Position numbers and translations under genes: made by a program
The notes under the pieces: generated by a model
The model's database searches: none
What the model saw: only the letters and a program-made list of their open reading frames with translations
Told to the model about the DNA's origin: nothing
Source: Thermoplasmata archaeon
GTDB taxonomy: Archaea; Thermoplasmatota; Thermoplasmata; Lutacidiplasmatales; UBA184
Reading direction: 5' to 3'
DNA length: 39,000 nt
Assembly (NCBI GenBank): GCA_027315455.1
Contig: DAHUXZ010000020.1
Span: forward strand, 1-39,000
Shown here: positions 7,511-12,217 of the stretch, in pieces
How positions within the stretch are numbered: the first letter of the stretch is position 1
Layout: each line of letters begins with the position of its first letter

Positions 7511-8476
7511 TCACGGGGCGTCGTAGCGTCGGCCCTCGGTCTCCACGTGCTCGACCGTGAGGTCCTGGACGCCGTGGACCGGGCGGTCGAGCGGGACCCG
7601 CGCGAAGATCACGCCGCCATAGCGCTCGTAGTAGCGGGTGGTGTGGAGCGTGAGGCAGCGGCCGCCGTAGGCCGGCTGTCCGGTGATGTCGGGGTCGTGT
7701 CCCCTCAGGAAAAGCCGCGTGCCCGAGGCGCCGAGGAAGCGGGTGAGGTCCGCCGCGGTGAACGGCGCGCCGAGCCCCCGGTCGATCCCGGAGGTCGCGC
7801 AGTCGGTCCAGGTCAGATCCAGGACCGCCTCCTCGCTGCCGTTGGCGATCGCCGCGCGCCAGTCGCCGCCGCCGCGGGGGAACCCGCCGTGCGCAAGGAA
7901 CACTCCCGCGTCGAGCCGGGCGGCGAGCGGGCCGCGCTCGAGCAGGCCGAGGAGCCGGACGTAGCGATCCGGCTCCGGCCCCCAGAGGAGGTCGACCTCC
8001 TCGGGCAGGTCGTGGGGGAGCACGGGGACCGTGCGGACGCTCTCGTGGTTGCCGCGGAGGAGGAAAACGCGGCCCGGGAACTCCGCCGCCAGCCCGAGCA
8101 GGTAGAGGGCGTTCGCGACGGAGCCCTCCGGGCAGTCGCTCGGGGTGCGGTCGATGTAGTCGCCGAGCCCGATGAGCAGCGTCGAGCGGGAGGCGGCGAG
8201 GAACCGATCCGCGACGGCGAGCGTCGACCGCCAGTCGCCGTGGGTGTCCCCGAAGACGATCGCTTCGCCGGCCCCCGACCGGTCGACCTCGAGAAAGGCC
8301 GGGTGGGCCGGAACGAGGGCCTCGAGGTCGTCGAGCAGGCGGTCCGCCTCCGTCGTCTCGAGCGCGAGGATCTCCTCGGGCCGGGGGCGCTGCCCCCTCA
8401 TCGCGGTCCCGGTGATGCGGGGGGCCGGAGTTCCCGGGGTCCGGCCCTCGGTCGGGCCCCCTTTGAACCGGCGCAT
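7511..8476 (-). CDS. PPP-family metallophosphatase (Ser/Thr phosphatase-like)
   Basis: 321 residues. The three signature blocks of the PPP metallophosphoesterases are present in order: GDTHGD, GDYIDR and RGNHES. They are followed by a metal-binding His in FLAHGG and a late RGHDPD. This set binds two divalent metals and cleaves phosphate esters; Ser/Thr protein phosphatase is the most likely activity, though related proteins hydrolyse nucleotides. The ATG at 8476 is kept because a TATA-like box (revcomp of 8494-8503) lies about 24 nt upstream; an internal ATG at 8401 would remove a 25-residue low-complexity tail and is a reasonable alternative. No membrane segment is seen. Confidence 0.85.
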   Translation of the reverse strand: MRRFKGGPTEGRTPGTPAPRITGTAMRGQRPRPEEILALETTEADRLLDDLEALVPAHPAFLEVDRSGAGEAIVFGDTHGDWRSTLAVADRFLAASRSTLLIGLGDYIDRTPSDCPEGSVANALYLLGLAAEFPGRVFLLRGNHESVRTVPVLPHDLPEEVDLLWGPEPDRYVRLLGLLERGPLAARLDAGVFLAHGGFPRGGGDWRAAIANGSEEAVLDLTWTDCATSGIDRGLGAPFTAADLTRFLGASGTRLFLRGHDPDITGQPAYGGRCLTLHTTRYYERYGGVIFARVPLDRPVHGVQDLTVEHVETEGRRYDAP

Positions 8477-8593
8477 GCCCTAGGCAACAGGGTCCTAAGC
8501 CCTGCCTCGATGGCCCCGCCCGCGGCGACGGGCGGTTTGGCCGAGCTGGAGCACCCCCGCACGGGGATCGACGACGCGCGGCGAAGTTCGGAG

Positions 8594-8700
8594 TAGCCCC
8601 GGCAGGAGTCTCGGGACCGGGGGCCCGCCGCCCCCGGACCGTTCGAACCTGCGTCGCGAGATCCAGAGTCTCGCATGATTGGCCACTACACTACGGGGCT
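8594..8700 (-). tRNA. tRNA-Gln (CTG anticodon), with T-loop intron
   Basis: Acceptor stem AGCCCCG/CGGGGCT is perfectly paired, with discriminator A at 8594 and no encoded CCA. The anticodon stem CGAGA/TCTCG encloses loop CTCTGGA, giving anticodon CTG. The T stem GCAGG (8648-8652) finds its partner CCTGC only at 8602-8606. The 41 nt between them contain a 34-nt intron; removing it restores the consensus T loop TTCGAAT. The mature length is 73 nt. Read without the intron, the gene looks like a broken tRNA and could be missed by scanners that expect introns only next to the anticodon. Confidence 0.9.
8608..8641 (-). other. 34-nt bulge-helix-bulge intron in the T loop of tRNA-Gln
   Basis: The pre-tRNA folds into a strict hBHBh' motif. 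The outer helix is the T stem GCAGG/CCTGC. The 3-nt bulge AAC is cut after AA, the central 4-bp helix is TTCG/CGAG (one U-G pair), and the second 3-nt bulge ACT is cut after AC. The inner intron helix has arms GGTCCGGGGG and CCCCCGGTCC with one T-T mismatch. Cleavage between the second and third bulge nucleotides, as the archaeal splicing endonuclease does, joins TTCGAA to T. The intron sits between tRNA positions 59 and 60. Confidence 0.88.
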
Positions 8701-8726
8701 ACGGGGTCGGCCAGCGACGGGCGGCA

Positions 8727-8734
8727 CATAAACG
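8727..8734 (-). promoter_or_regulatory. TATA box of tRNA-Gln
   Basis: On the minus strand CGTTTATG is centred about 30 nt before the tRNA 5' end at 8700, the usual distance for an archaeal tRNA promoter. Confidence 0.6.
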
Positions 8735-8825: not shown

Positions 8826-8831
8826 GAGGTG
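8826..8831 (+). promoter_or_regulatory. Shine-Dalgarno site deciding the permease start
   Basis: GAGGTG matches the archaeal anti-SD sequence and ends 6 nt before the ATG at 8838. It therefore favours that ATG over the GTG at 8829, which lies inside the SD itself. Confidence 0.6.
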
Positions 8832-8837
8832 GACCCC

Positions 8838-10646
8838 ATGAGGCAGCCATCGGTTGCTCCCCGGCGCGGTGAGGATCGGCCGGAGGACCGCGGGGGGCCG
8901 GGCGCCTCCCGGGGCGGCGGCCCGCTTTATCGGTTGCGCGGCGCGTTCTCCTCGCTCGCGGTCATCGCCGTCGCGCTCCCGTTCGTGCTCGGCTGGACCG
9001 GCGGAGACCTGGGCGGGGTCTCCCGGGACCTCGGCACGGCCGGCTACGACCTCGTGCTGTCGTTCACCCGGATGCTTTTCGCCTACCTTTTGTCCCTCGG
9101 GTTCGCGCTGACCTACGGCTACTTCGCCGCGAGCTACCGCAGCGGCGAGCGGGTCCTCATCCCGGTCCTCGACATCCTCCAGTCGGTCCCGATCCTCGGG
9201 TTCTTCCCGATCGCGATCACGCTCTTCGTCGCCATCTCCGGGCCCGGAAGCTGGCTCGGTCCGAACATCGCCTCGATCTTCCTCATCTTCACCTCGATGG
9301 CGTGGAACATGGTCTTCGGGGTCTACGAGTCGCTGAAGTCCCTCCCCGCCGAGCTACGGGAGGCCGCCGACTCCTTCGGGGTCCGTGGCAGCCAGCGGCT
9401 GCGGGCCGTCCTCGCTCCCGCCACGGTGAACCGCCTCGTCTACAATTCGGTCCTCTCCTGGACCGCGGGGTGGTACTTCCTGGTCGCGGCGGAGTTCATC
9501 TCGACCTCCTCCTCGTCGACCCCGCTCCCCGGGATCGGAAGTTACCTGTTGACCGCGGCGAGCGCCGGCAACGGCGACGCGCTCGTGGCCGGGATCGTCC
9601 TCCTCGTCGCCGCCATCACGGCGCTCGACATATTCGTCTGGCGGCCGCTCGGCCGCTGGGCGGAGAAGTACCGCTATGACCAGGTCCCGAGCGGCGCGGC
9701 GGAGCTCACGGGGGTCTCCCGCCCCCGCGCCGCGCCCCTCCGGCGCGCCGCCGGCTATGTCTACCGGGGGGTCCGTACCGGGGTCTCCCGGATCGGTACG
9801 CCGTTCGTCGGGCTCGCCTCCCTCGCCGCGGGGACGGGGCGCGACCGCGAGCCGAGCCGGTTCGTCCGCTCGGCGTTCCGCTACGTGGCGCTCGGCGCGC
9901 TCCTCGTTCTGGCCTGGCTGCTCCTCATCGCGCTGGGCGTCGCAGTGTACAATGTCTTCGCGACCCCGATCGCCCCGATGGTCCGCGCCCAGATCGACCA
10001 GGTCCCCCTCGCGCTCGCGGCGTCGTTCGGCCGCATCGTCCTCGCCTACCTCCTCTCCCTCGCGATCGCGCTTCCCCTCGCGATCTACCTCGTCCGCCGT
10101 CCACGGGCCTACCGCGTGGGCCTGCCGATGGTGGAGGTCATCGCCTCGGTCCCGGCGACCGCGCTCTTCCCGCTGTTCATCTTCGCCCTGCTGCCGTTCC
10201 TCGGCTTCCAGGGCGCGGCGATCCTGATGCTGATCACCGGGATGCTCTGGTACCTCTTCTTCAACGTCCTCTCCGGGCTCCGCGCGATCCCGCCGGACCT
10301 CGAGGAGGCCGCCCGCTCCTTCGGCCTGCCTCGACGGGAGTACTACCGCCGTCTCGTCCTCCCGGCCGTGTTCCCGGCGCTGATCACGGGATCGATCACC
10401 GCCTTCGGGGGCGGGTGGAACACGCTCATCATCGCGGAGTTCCTCCAATATGGCCCGACCCGGCACTTCCAGGTGCTCGGCATCGGCGCCCTGATCGATG
10501 TGGGCAACTACATCGACCCGGGCCAATCGGGCTACCCGCTCATGGCCGTCGCGCTGCTCACGATGGTCCTCACCGTGGTCGCCGTCAACGAACTCTTATG
10601 GAAGCCGCTGTATCGCCGCGCGGTCGGGAAGTACCGCTACGATTGA
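8838..10646 (+). CDS. fused double permease of an anion-type (NitT/TauT-like) ABC transporter
   Basis: About 602 residues holding two complete binding-protein-dependent permease domains in one chain, each with about five to six membrane helices. Each half has its EAA coupling loop: ELREAADSFGVRGSQRL in the first and DLEEAARSFGLPRREYYRRL in the second. The halves are joined by a hydrophilic linker of about 60 residues. This layout corresponds to what I recall as COG4986, the duplicated permease component of an anion transport system. The ATG at 8838 is fixed by a GAGGTG site. The ATPase gene follows after 31 nt. Nitrate, sulfonate or a similar anion is the family guess; the substrate is not visible, and no substrate-binding protein gene lies in the window. 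Confidence 0.9.
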   Translation: MRQPSVAPRRGEDRPEDRGGPGASRGGGPLYRLRGAFSSLAVIAVALPFVLGWTGGDLGGVSRDLGTAGYDLVLSFTRMLFAYLLSLGFALTYGYFAASYRSGERVLIPVLDILQSVPILGFFPIAITLFVAISGPGSWLGPNIASIFLIFTSMAWNMVFGVYESLKSLPAELREAADSFGVRGSQRLRAVLAPATVNRLVYNSVLSWTAGWYFLVAAEFISTSSSSTPLPGIGSYLLTAASAGNGDALVAGIVLLVAAITALDIFVWRPLGRWAEKYRYDQVPSGAAELTGVSRPRAAPLRRAAGYVYRGVRTGVSRIGTPFVGLASLAAGTGRDREPSRFVRSAFRYVALGALLVLAWLLLIALGVAVYNVFATPIAPMVRAQIDQVPLALAASFGRIVLAYLLSLAIALPLAIYLVRRPRAYRVGLPMVEVIASVPATALFPLFIFALLPFLGFQGAAILMLITGMLWYLFFNVLSGLRAIPPDLEEAARSFGLPRREYYRRLVLPAVFPALITGSITAFGGGWNTLIIAEFLQYGPTRHFQVLGIGALIDVGNYIDPGQSGYPLMAVALLTMVLTVVAVNELLWKPLYRRAVGKYRYD

Positions 10647-10677
10647 CGCGGCGGTCGCGAACGGGAGGAGGGGCCGC

Positions 10678-11505
10678 GTGGCGCTGATCGACGTCGACCA
10701 GGTCAACAAGGCCTTCCCGAGCCGGCACGGGACGATCTCGATCATGAGCGAGATCTCCTTCTCCGTCGCGAACAACGACTTCCTCGCGATCGTCGGCCCC
10801 TCCGGCTCCGGCAAGTCCACCCTGCTCCGCCTCATCCAGGGGCTCGACCGTCCCACGTCCGGGGAGGTCCGCTTCCGGGGCCGGCCGGTAAACGGGGTCT
10901 GCCACGAGATGGCGATGGTCTTCCAGAGCTTCGCGCTCTACCCCTGGCTCACGGTCACGGAGAACGTCGCCTTCGGGCTCGAGGCGCGGGGCTGGGAGCC
11001 GGAGCGCATCGAGTCCCAGGTCGAACGGTACATCAGCGTGACGGGGCTCGTCGGCTTCGAGGAGGCGTACCCTCGTGAGCTCTCCGGGGGCATGCGCCAG
11101 CGCGTCGGCCTCGCGCGGGCCCTCGCCGTCGAGCCGGCGGTCCTTCTCATGGACGAGCCGTTCTCGGCCCTCGACCCCCTTACCGCGGAGAGCCTGCGCG
11201 AGGAGGTCCTGCAGCTGTGGCGGGACCCGCAGCTCCCCCCCGAGGCCGTCATCCTCGTCACCCACAACATCGAGGAGGCGCTGGTGATGGCCGACCGTCT
11301 GATCGTCCTGTCGCGCCGGCCCGGCCGCGTCCTCGCGGGCGTTCTCGTCAAGCTCCCCCGGCCCCGGGACCGCAAGTCGGAGGCGTTCTACGAGCTGACC
11401 GACTACGTCTACTCGCTGATCACCGAGGGCCGTCCCCCCGGTTCTCGCCTCCCGTCCCCCGTCGGCGGCGCCGACACTCCGGCGACGCCCCCCGCCCGTA
11501 CGTAG
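10678..11505 (+). CDS. ABC transporter ATP-binding protein (NitT/TauT type)
   Basis: From the GTG at 10678, about 275 residues. Walker A is GPSGSGKS, the Q-loop FQSFALYPWLTV, the signature LSGGMRQR, Walker B VLLMDEPFSALD and the H-loop VTHNIEEA, so it should be an active ATPase. The GTG is preceded by GGGAGGAGG (10662-10670); the longer frame from 10498 runs inside the permease gene and was rejected. The C-terminus ends in a Pro/Ala-rich tail, where many relatives instead carry an AAA-associated C-terminal domain; that domain is encoded separately by the next gene. It powers the fused permease upstream. Confidence 0.92.
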   Translation: MALIDVDQVNKAFPSRHGTISIMSEISFSVANNDFLAIVGPSGSGKSTLLRLIQGLDRPTSGEVRFRGRPVNGVCHEMAMVFQSFALYPWLTVTENVAFGLEARGWEPERIESQVERYISVTGLVGFEEAYPRELSGGMRQRVGLARALAVEPAVLLMDEPFSALDPLTAESLREEVLQLWRDPQLPPEAVILVTHNIEEALVMADRLIVLSRRPGRVLAGVLVKLPRPRDRKSEAFYELTDYVYSLITEGRPPGSRLPSPVGGADTPATPPART

Positions 11506-11539
11506 CGCTCCGCGCTACGTGCGGTTCAAAAACGACAAT

Positions 11540-11547
11540 GCTTATAG
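11540..11547 (+). promoter_or_regulatory. TATA-like box of the AAA-associated-domain gene
   Basis: The sequence gcttatag lies 50 nt before the GTG at 11594. It suggests the third cassette gene can be transcribed on its own. Confidence 0.45.
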
Positions 11548-11593
11548 GCAGGTCCCCCAGTGGAACCCTGCGTTTCAGGAGAACGTTCTGCTC

Positions 11594-12217
11594 GTGCCCA
11601 CTGCGTACCCCAAGGCGTCGCCCACGGAGATGATGGGCCTTTTGGTCCTGCTCAAGGACCACAAGGGCGCGGAGGACGTCGCACGCCTCGCCGACGACCT
11701 CGACCTCGAGATCGACGAGATCCTCCCGTCCATCGAGTTCGCCGAGGTGCTGGGGCTGGTCAAGATCGCCGACGGCCGGGCGACGCTCACCGAGGCGGGC
11801 GAACGGCTGCTCTCGGTCTCGATCCGTGAGCGCAAGACCCTGCTCCGCGCCCAGCTCGTGCGGACGACCCTGTTCAAGGCGCTCCTCCGGGCGCTCGACA
11901 CCGCACCCGAGCACCGCCTCTCGGAGCCCGAGGTCAACCGCCTCATCGAGTTCACGACCGCTCCGGCGGACGCCCTCGTGCAGAACATCATCAACTGGGG
12001 TCGGTACGCCGAGGTGTTCCGCTTCGACTCCGATGCCCGGGTCCTTCTGCCCGCCCGCGGGCGCGCCGGGGGCCGGGGTTCACCCTCATCGTCCCGCACG
12101 CCGCCGGGCGGAGGCGCGCTCGAGCCGGACGTCGCGGCCGAGACGGCGGCGGCCGACCCCCCTCCCCGCGGGCCGGGACCGCGCCAGGCGACCTCCCTCG
12201 CCGGGGCCTGGGCCTAG
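11594..12217 (+). CDS. stand-alone AAA-associated C-terminal domain protein (ABC cassette partner)
   Basis: About 207 residues. The segment from PKASPTEMMGLLVLLKD through FAEVLGLVKIADG, LTEAGERLL and IINWGRYAEVFRFD matches the AAA_assoc_C family, normally fused to the C-terminus of archaeal NitT/TauT-type ATPases. It contains a winged-helix-like half and a helical half. Here it is a separate gene directly behind the ATPase, probably a regulatory or stabilising subunit. The start is uncertain: GTG 11594 is the first standard start after the TATA-like box, with GGAG at 11578-11581, while a longer reading from 11519 would overlap the promoter. The last 45 residues are disordered. No DNA-binding role can be claimed. 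Confidence 0.8.
   Translation: MPTAYPKASPTEMMGLLVLLKDHKGAEDVARLADDLDLEIDEILPSIEFAEVLGLVKIADGRATLTEAGERLLSVSIRERKTLLRAQLVRTTLFKALLRALDTAPEHRLSEPEVNRLIEFTTAPADALVQNIINWGRYAEVFRFDSDARVLLPARGRAGGRGSPSSSRTPPGGGALEPDVAAETAAADPPPRGPGPRQATSLAGAWA

Follow-up and report, generated by a model that had tools for sequence, protein, structure and literature searches.

The tRNA-Gln(CUG) gene on the minus strand of the window (by which we mean the whole stretch of 39,000 nucleotides that was analyzed) is interrupted in its T loop, at position 59/60, by 34 nucleotides. As judged from the sequence, we hold this insert, with high confidence, to be a genuine archaeal bulge-helix-bulge (BHB) tRNA intron that would be removed by the splicing endonuclease EndA in a Thermoplasmatota genome. 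The earlier note on this DNA had named the gene and its intron from the letters alone, and its coordinates, strand, and isotype all proved correct to the base (Table 1); that such an intron occurs in a euryarchaeal-type genome is likewise supported, the host being a member of the Thermoplasmatota and, to judge from its relatives, of the Lutacidiplasmatales. The notable feature is a family-wide set of introns at this same site, in a lineage whose EndA is without the expected loop. The note's reading of the intron stands, its inference about the enzyme lacks support, and its scope was too small.

Table 1. Interrupted tRNA genes of the window, their introns, and the promoter-like element
Feature	Coordinates	Strand	Basis or remarks
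tRNA-Gln(CUG) gene, exons and intron	8594..8700	minus	sequence anatomy, fold, homologues
34-nt intron of tRNA-Gln(CUG), T loop (59/60)	8608..8641	minus	MFE fold, homologues, uninterrupted order-mates
TATA-like promoter element TTTATGT, 26-32 nt upstream of tRNA-Gln	8726..8732	minus	A+T position profile
tRNA-Leu(UAG) gene, two introns	8416..8560	minus	33 nt downstream of tRNA-Gln; missed by ARAGORN and Rfam
27-nt D-loop intron of tRNA-Leu(UAG)	8510..8536	minus	strict BHB CUC-GGCC / GGCC-AUC-GAG in MFE fold
32-nt T-loop intron (59/60) of tRNA-Leu(UAG)	8430..8461	minus	three of four central pairs, A57.G mismatch

Anatomy, conservation, and covariation of the Gln intron

Removal of the intron yields a predicted spliced tRNA of 73 nt in which the acceptor stem (seven of seven pairs) and the T stem (five of five) are complete and the T loop reads TTCGAAT, the perfect stem and consensus loop that the note had described. 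The unspliced RNA, folded without constraint to its minimum free energy (MFE), forms the T stem, the central helix UUCG:CGAG between 3-nt bulges (AAC and ACU), and a long inner helix, i.e., a strict BHB, so that the proposed bulges and 4-bp helix were reproduced. The fold of the whole precursor has a z of -2.31, and equally good folds arose in two of 200 shuffles. Before splicing, the gene reaches 20.6 bits with the Rfam tRNA model, below the cut-off of 29; ARAGORN calls a tRNA-Gln but misplaces its 3' end at 8627. Upstream, across 77 regions preceding Gln loci, the A+T fraction at positions -31 to -28 is 0.87, 1.00, 1.00, and 0.91, with flanking A+T-rich positions at -36 to -34 (0.52-0.84) and -27 to -25 (0.52-0.73), and values of 0.1-0.3 at most others. 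A stricter TATA pattern matched 18 of these 77 regions, and the position profile was preferred to it.

Contigs were scanned with a conserved exon pattern able to match uninterrupted genes as well. Of the resulting 81 stretches, 80 were listed, 79 of them from Thermoplasmata archaea or Ca. Lutacidiplasma silvani (UBA184 included) and one from a Euryarchaeota. The insert is present in 79 of the 81 loci, the remaining two being cut by contig ends. Reading 80 loci gave 78 complete inserts (76 of 34 nt and two of 33 nt), comprising 72 distinct introns, and 77 of the 78 have all four central pairs, G-U being counted as pairing; the last of the 81 loci, examined separately, likewise carries the insert and stands outside all intron statistics. 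When the distinct introns were folded, a BHB, defined as a complete T stem, at least three central pairs, and both bulges open, formed in 48 of 72, as against 51 of 7200 shuffled introns, and a stricter criterion gave 36 of 72 against five of 7200. In the 24 introns that gave no BHB in the unconstrained MFE fold, a bulge was opened or filled, or the central helix was lost. Gln(CUG) copies read separately from same-genus genomes carry the insert in 34 of 34 cases (20 + 14), drawn from 32 of 37 genomes; in the other five (G004, G017, G020, G030, and G034) the D-arm pattern found no Gln(CUG)-type match.

Two order-mates that belong to another family (loci L068 and L069) provide the empty site: their T loop is uninterrupted, and their T arm and acceptor are identical to those of the predicted Gln ligation product. 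Both of these tRNA-Gln(CUG) genes instead carry anticodon-loop inserts with repeated motifs, of roughly 180 and 380 nt as judged by eye, which is very long for tRNA introns.

Covariation was scored on an alignment of 21 T arms, eight of them from Gln orthologues; a full-length pre-tRNA alignment, in which the anticodon arm was misaligned, was dropped. The score of 0.473, compared with 0.201 (sd 0.021) for shuffled data, was reached in none of 500 shuffles, and the named structure outscores six slid registers. Double changes occur in all 10 inner-helix pairs, and 71.2% of inner-helix cells pair. Structure is preserved by compensatory change in the inner helix and the T stem, while the central helix varies chiefly on the intron side, because its other strand is exon.

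Fourteen same-site introns and their distribution

The genome from which the window derives (1.98 Mb in 87 contigs, 94% complete) gave 37 matches in a tRNA-model search, 27 of them above the cut-off. Read individually, 14 of its tRNA genes have an intron at 59/60: Gln(CUG), Leu(UAG), Glu(CUC), Arg(UCU), Asn, Gly(UCC), Arg(UCG), Ser(GCU), Ala(GGC), Ser(GGA), Ser(CGA), Asp, Lys(UUU), and His. Removal of the introns leaves every one of the 14 with fully paired acceptor and T stems and a TTCRAAT loop. We identified 38 tRNA genes in this genome, 14 with a T-loop intron and 18 with any intron. The difference is made up by Arg(GCG) (D loop), Tyr, Leu(UAA), and one gene on contig C21; among the loci read there was none for Trp, initiator Met, Ile, or some of the Pro, Val, and Leu anticodons. 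By eye, Lys(UUU) (L105, G000:C30) has an apparent D-arm intron beside its T-loop intron, and Arg(GCG) (L028, G000:C16) a D-loop intron only. The gene at G000:C21:10066-10165, which ARAGORN reports as an Arg tRNA with a 2-nt intron, resembles, on inspection by eye, a Glu(UUC) gene interrupted in the anticodon loop.

Unspliced, five of the 14 genes were called by ARAGORN and nine were missed; spliced, 13 of 14 were called with the correct isotype, in a test in which both Leu introns were removed and the Lys D-arm intron was left in place. Tools of this type miss interrupted tRNAs, and such genomes would therefore appear to be short of tRNAs; the archaeal mode of tRNAscan-SE searches for introns of this kind. 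A covariance model built on interrupted T arms returned 14 matches in the same genome at E ≤5.5e-5, the next being at E 3.6; as its training set of 21 sequences contained those 14, the result shows only that no similar intron had been missed. An older search with a gapped DNA pattern, which that model supersedes, found 10 places against none in the control: seven tRNA T-loop introns, one re-reading of Gln, one place running out of the intronless Gln(UUG), and one that is not a tRNA.

The Leu(UAG) gene adjoins Gln in the window. Its T-loop intron scores 52.7 bits (E 1.3e-6) with the covariance model, whose training set included it. At the 73 Gln loci followed by 230 nt or more of sequence, exact exon patterns for Leu(UAG) detect the T-loop insertion in 70 and the D-arm insertion in 62. 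The longest reading of the neighboring metallophosphoesterase frame (PF00149; 7511-8476, minus strand) begins within tRNA-Leu(UAG), and an internal ATG near 8401, just past the tRNA gene, is the likelier start. On the plus strand, 8829-12217 encodes a permease with two PF00528 stretches, an ATPase (PF00005), and a PF09821 protein (AAA-associated C-terminal domain), probably an ABC transporter set.

Beyond this genome, the introns were followed with R1, a covariance model for such T arms that was trained on the genus. At E 0.01, every one of the 37 same-genus genomes had between 3 and 15 matches; among 24 other genomes, 17 had one to five matches and seven had none, the best being in G041 (E 1.5e-6), and three order-mates had one, zero, and two. 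A 389-genome sample of the phylum, searched at E 1e-4, returned 3-13 matches in all 23 same-family genomes (14 of the same genus and nine of other genera) and one or two in six of the other 366, a sample in which distant cases can be missed, since 14 candidates were scored per genome and the model is genus-trained. All 40 stretches taken from nine genomes of the family and from two outsiders parse as an interrupted T arm; L208 among them is parsed at the wrong place, and L212 and L241 each hold two genes. The two outsiders, G041 (L239 and L240) and G083 (L238), have T-loop introns in Arg tRNAs outside the family, the ARAGORN isotype of L239 and L240 being drawn from sequences that seem to contain a further intron. 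These Arg introns are apparently independent of those in the family, and site 59/60 has thus probably been used more than once.

The ends of introns in the relative G018 and in the genome under study are 0.66 identical between orthologous tRNAs (eight pairs) and 0.46 between non-orthologous ones (104 pairs). We rejected recent transposition of introns within the genome: ends from different tRNAs have a mean identity of 0.47 (largest 0.86), lower than the 0.66 of orthologues, and so give no general sign of recent spread. Within the family, the 14 same-site introns have apparently been inherited gene by gene.

Splicing enzymes and alternative readings

The earlier note had taken the T-loop position to imply a splicing endonuclease of broad specificity and had proposed that EndA architecture be inspected. 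A match to PF01974 (EndA) was found in 54 of the 61 genomes examined, mostly as two repeats in one open frame (G005 and G020 have one match each, and G011 three); two repeats per frame and no further match offer no hint that a second subunit is encoded elsewhere. The references for aligning EndA were that of A. fulgidus and the longer form 3p1y, which we take to be A. fulgidus EndA with a grafted crenarchaeal loop; L038 and L048 gave no motif and were omitted. An insertion between the motifs YG(S) and LSL, where such a loop would lie, is absent from all 24 aligned Thermoplasmatota EndA, including nine of the same genus, and likewise from EndA of the order-mates G037, G038, and G039. The Tyr and His of the second repeat and the Lys of VRK, presumably the catalytic residues, are present in nine of nine same-genus proteins. 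As predicted from their sequences, the relatives' EndA are of the fused two-repeat, alpha-prime-2 type. The proposed inspection was thus possible for relatives, whose EndA is fused and loop-less; in the genome's own assembly, EndA was found neither by the Pfam search nor with a relative's protein (at one end of which four letters were erroneous), nor was the pyrE-like neighbor (named by eye) of endA in G018. That both endA and this neighbor are missing from a 94%-complete assembly suggests an assembly gap. RtcB is present in all 11 genomes examined, this one included (contig C18, E 3.7e-174).

From these elements we infer that the Gln precursor would be transcribed from its own TATA-like element, that a fused alpha-prime-2 EndA would cut it at AA^C and AC^U within the two 3-nt bulges, and that RtcB would join the exons, the T loop becoming UUCGAAU. 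As the BHB is complete, with the T stem and conserved UUCG on one strand and the intron on the other, no broad EndA specificity would be needed here. Further, because the T stem and conserved UUC(G) are ready-made, an intron would need no more than a suitable 3' end for a T loop to be spliceable; this ready-made motif strand may explain how one position serves 14 tRNAs.

It is very improbable that the Gln(CUG) gene is instead a dead, decayed copy bearing an insertion, and that CAG is read by Gln(UUG) through wobble. A UUG anticodon can read CAG, and an intronless Gln(UUG) that could in principle do so is present (G000:C66:839-911). A search of the genome with a Gln-type D-arm pattern, allowing at most two mismatches, matched two places, this gene and the interrupted Gln(CUG), so that a further complete Gln(CUG) gene, which the note had offered, together with a lack of spliced RNA, as grounds for regarding this copy as dead, was not found; a more divergent D arm would escape the pattern. 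Against decay, the exons are nearly invariant, the insert occurs in every complete homologue read (78 + 1), its pairing is preserved by differing sequences, and the promoter-like element is kept; a BHB kept across the family argues that the gene is not dead. Scarcely more credible is retention of the insert, giving a mature tRNA-Gln with an extended T arm. The inner helix is indeed stable in the fold, yet the contact between D loop and T loop is established structure in elongator tRNAs, and an extra T-loop helix would disturb it. Retention also accords poorly with the conserved bulges, with 14 genes interrupted at one place that each gain a TTCRAAT loop upon removal, and with the presence of EndA in relatives and of RtcB in the genome itself.

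A more substantial alternative, which we nevertheless regard as unlikely, accepts the intron as true and assigns it, as the note had proposed, to an endonuclease of relaxed specificity. Part of its support comes from tRNA position 57. Where this is G, the intron has C opposite it in 17 of 18 tRNAs, in addition to all 78 Gln copies; where it is A, the intron has G, a mismatch, in 30 of 33, U in three, and C never, so most A57 tRNAs carry A.G at the 5' bulge edge. These counts cover the 14 tRNAs of the genome and 37 of the 40 fetched loci, three of the 37 being from outside the family, and omit L208 (misparsed) and L212 and L241 (two genes). In the genome itself, A57.G occurs in seven of eight A57 tRNAs, so that seven of the 14 introns have three central pairs and seven have all four. 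Unconstrained folding of six further precursors (Lys, Glu, Arg(UCU), His, Asn, and Arg(UCG)) never gave the full T-loop central helix; strictness is therefore shown for Gln and for the Leu D-loop intron rather than for the whole set. Passages of a 2025 structural paper (PMC12397907) add that species with an extra EndA loop tend toward diversified introns.

On the other side stand the nine same-genus EndA, which have no insertion at the site of the extra residues in 3p1y, and the two PF01974 repeats in one frame of most relatives, with no sign of a second subunit; the same passages (PMC12397907) describe loop-less alpha-prime-2 EndA as limited to the canonical BHB. Given the strict BHB of the Gln intron and the loop-less EndA of the genus, the inference of a broad-specificity enzyme is unsupported and not needed for Gln. 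For the intron set as a whole it stays partly open, as some tolerance in the enzyme may be needed for introns with only three central pairs. We advance, tentatively and as somewhat less than an even prospect, the proposal that the loop-less fused EndA handles the family-wide set of T-loop introns, many of which carry a conserved A57.G in place of the G57-C of the strict motif, and that A57.G constitutes a second accepted form of the BHB.

Relation to known systems and significance

The Gln intron resembles those of the Crenarchaeota, above all the Thermoproteales (Pyrobaculum and relatives), in combining a BHB motif with a noncanonical position, and passages of PMC4090602 list 59/60 among the archaeal noncanonical positions and report several introns per gene. 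However, the Crenarchaeota use many intron positions, whereas 14 genes share one here, with a few D-loop introns besides; crenarchaeal EndA is described as two-subunit with an extra loop (passages of PMC4090602 and PMC12397907), while that of the Lutacidiplasmatales relatives is fused and loop-less; and Thermoproteales introns are very similar to each other, in contrast to the introns of different tRNAs in this genome, which on average are not near-copies. Euryarchaeal introns at 37/38 share the BHB and the two-repeat EndA but differ in position.

The earlier note's view that noncanonical positions are uncommon outside the Thermoproteales needs updating. The Asgard Atabeyarchaeia and Freyarchaeia are rich in them, according to passages of PMC11291895, which describe, as here, a high intron load at noncanonical positions, with some introns undetected by tRNAscan-SE; they represent another phylum and differ in that 92-95% of their tRNA genes are interrupted, over half of these multiply. 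For the Thaumarchaeota, 107 noncanonical tRNA introns are reported in passages of PMC8450103, and according to PMC3218864 the archaea that have noncanonical introns include three thermophilic methanogens of the euryarchaea. For the Thermoplasmatota, the papers listed in our literature search, which covered a minority of subscription journals, included none presented as reporting T-loop tRNA introns, and in the main text of the Lutacidiplasmatales genome paper (PMC9287336) the word "intron" occurs 0 times.

In the accepted picture, noncanonical introns are tied to an EndA with an extra loop, and euryarchaea have few introns, at the canonical site. The same-site set is unexpected both for this archaeal branch and for the EndA type of its relatives; its spread at 59/60 might have persisted through disruption of the T-arm sequence that integrating elements target. 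The lineage, in which 14 of the 38 tRNA genes identified in this genome carry a 59/60 intron and the EndA of relatives is loop-less, offers a direct natural test of the link between noncanonical introns and EndA loops. If the loop-less fused EndA does handle the family-wide set, intron position and EndA loops would not be tied.
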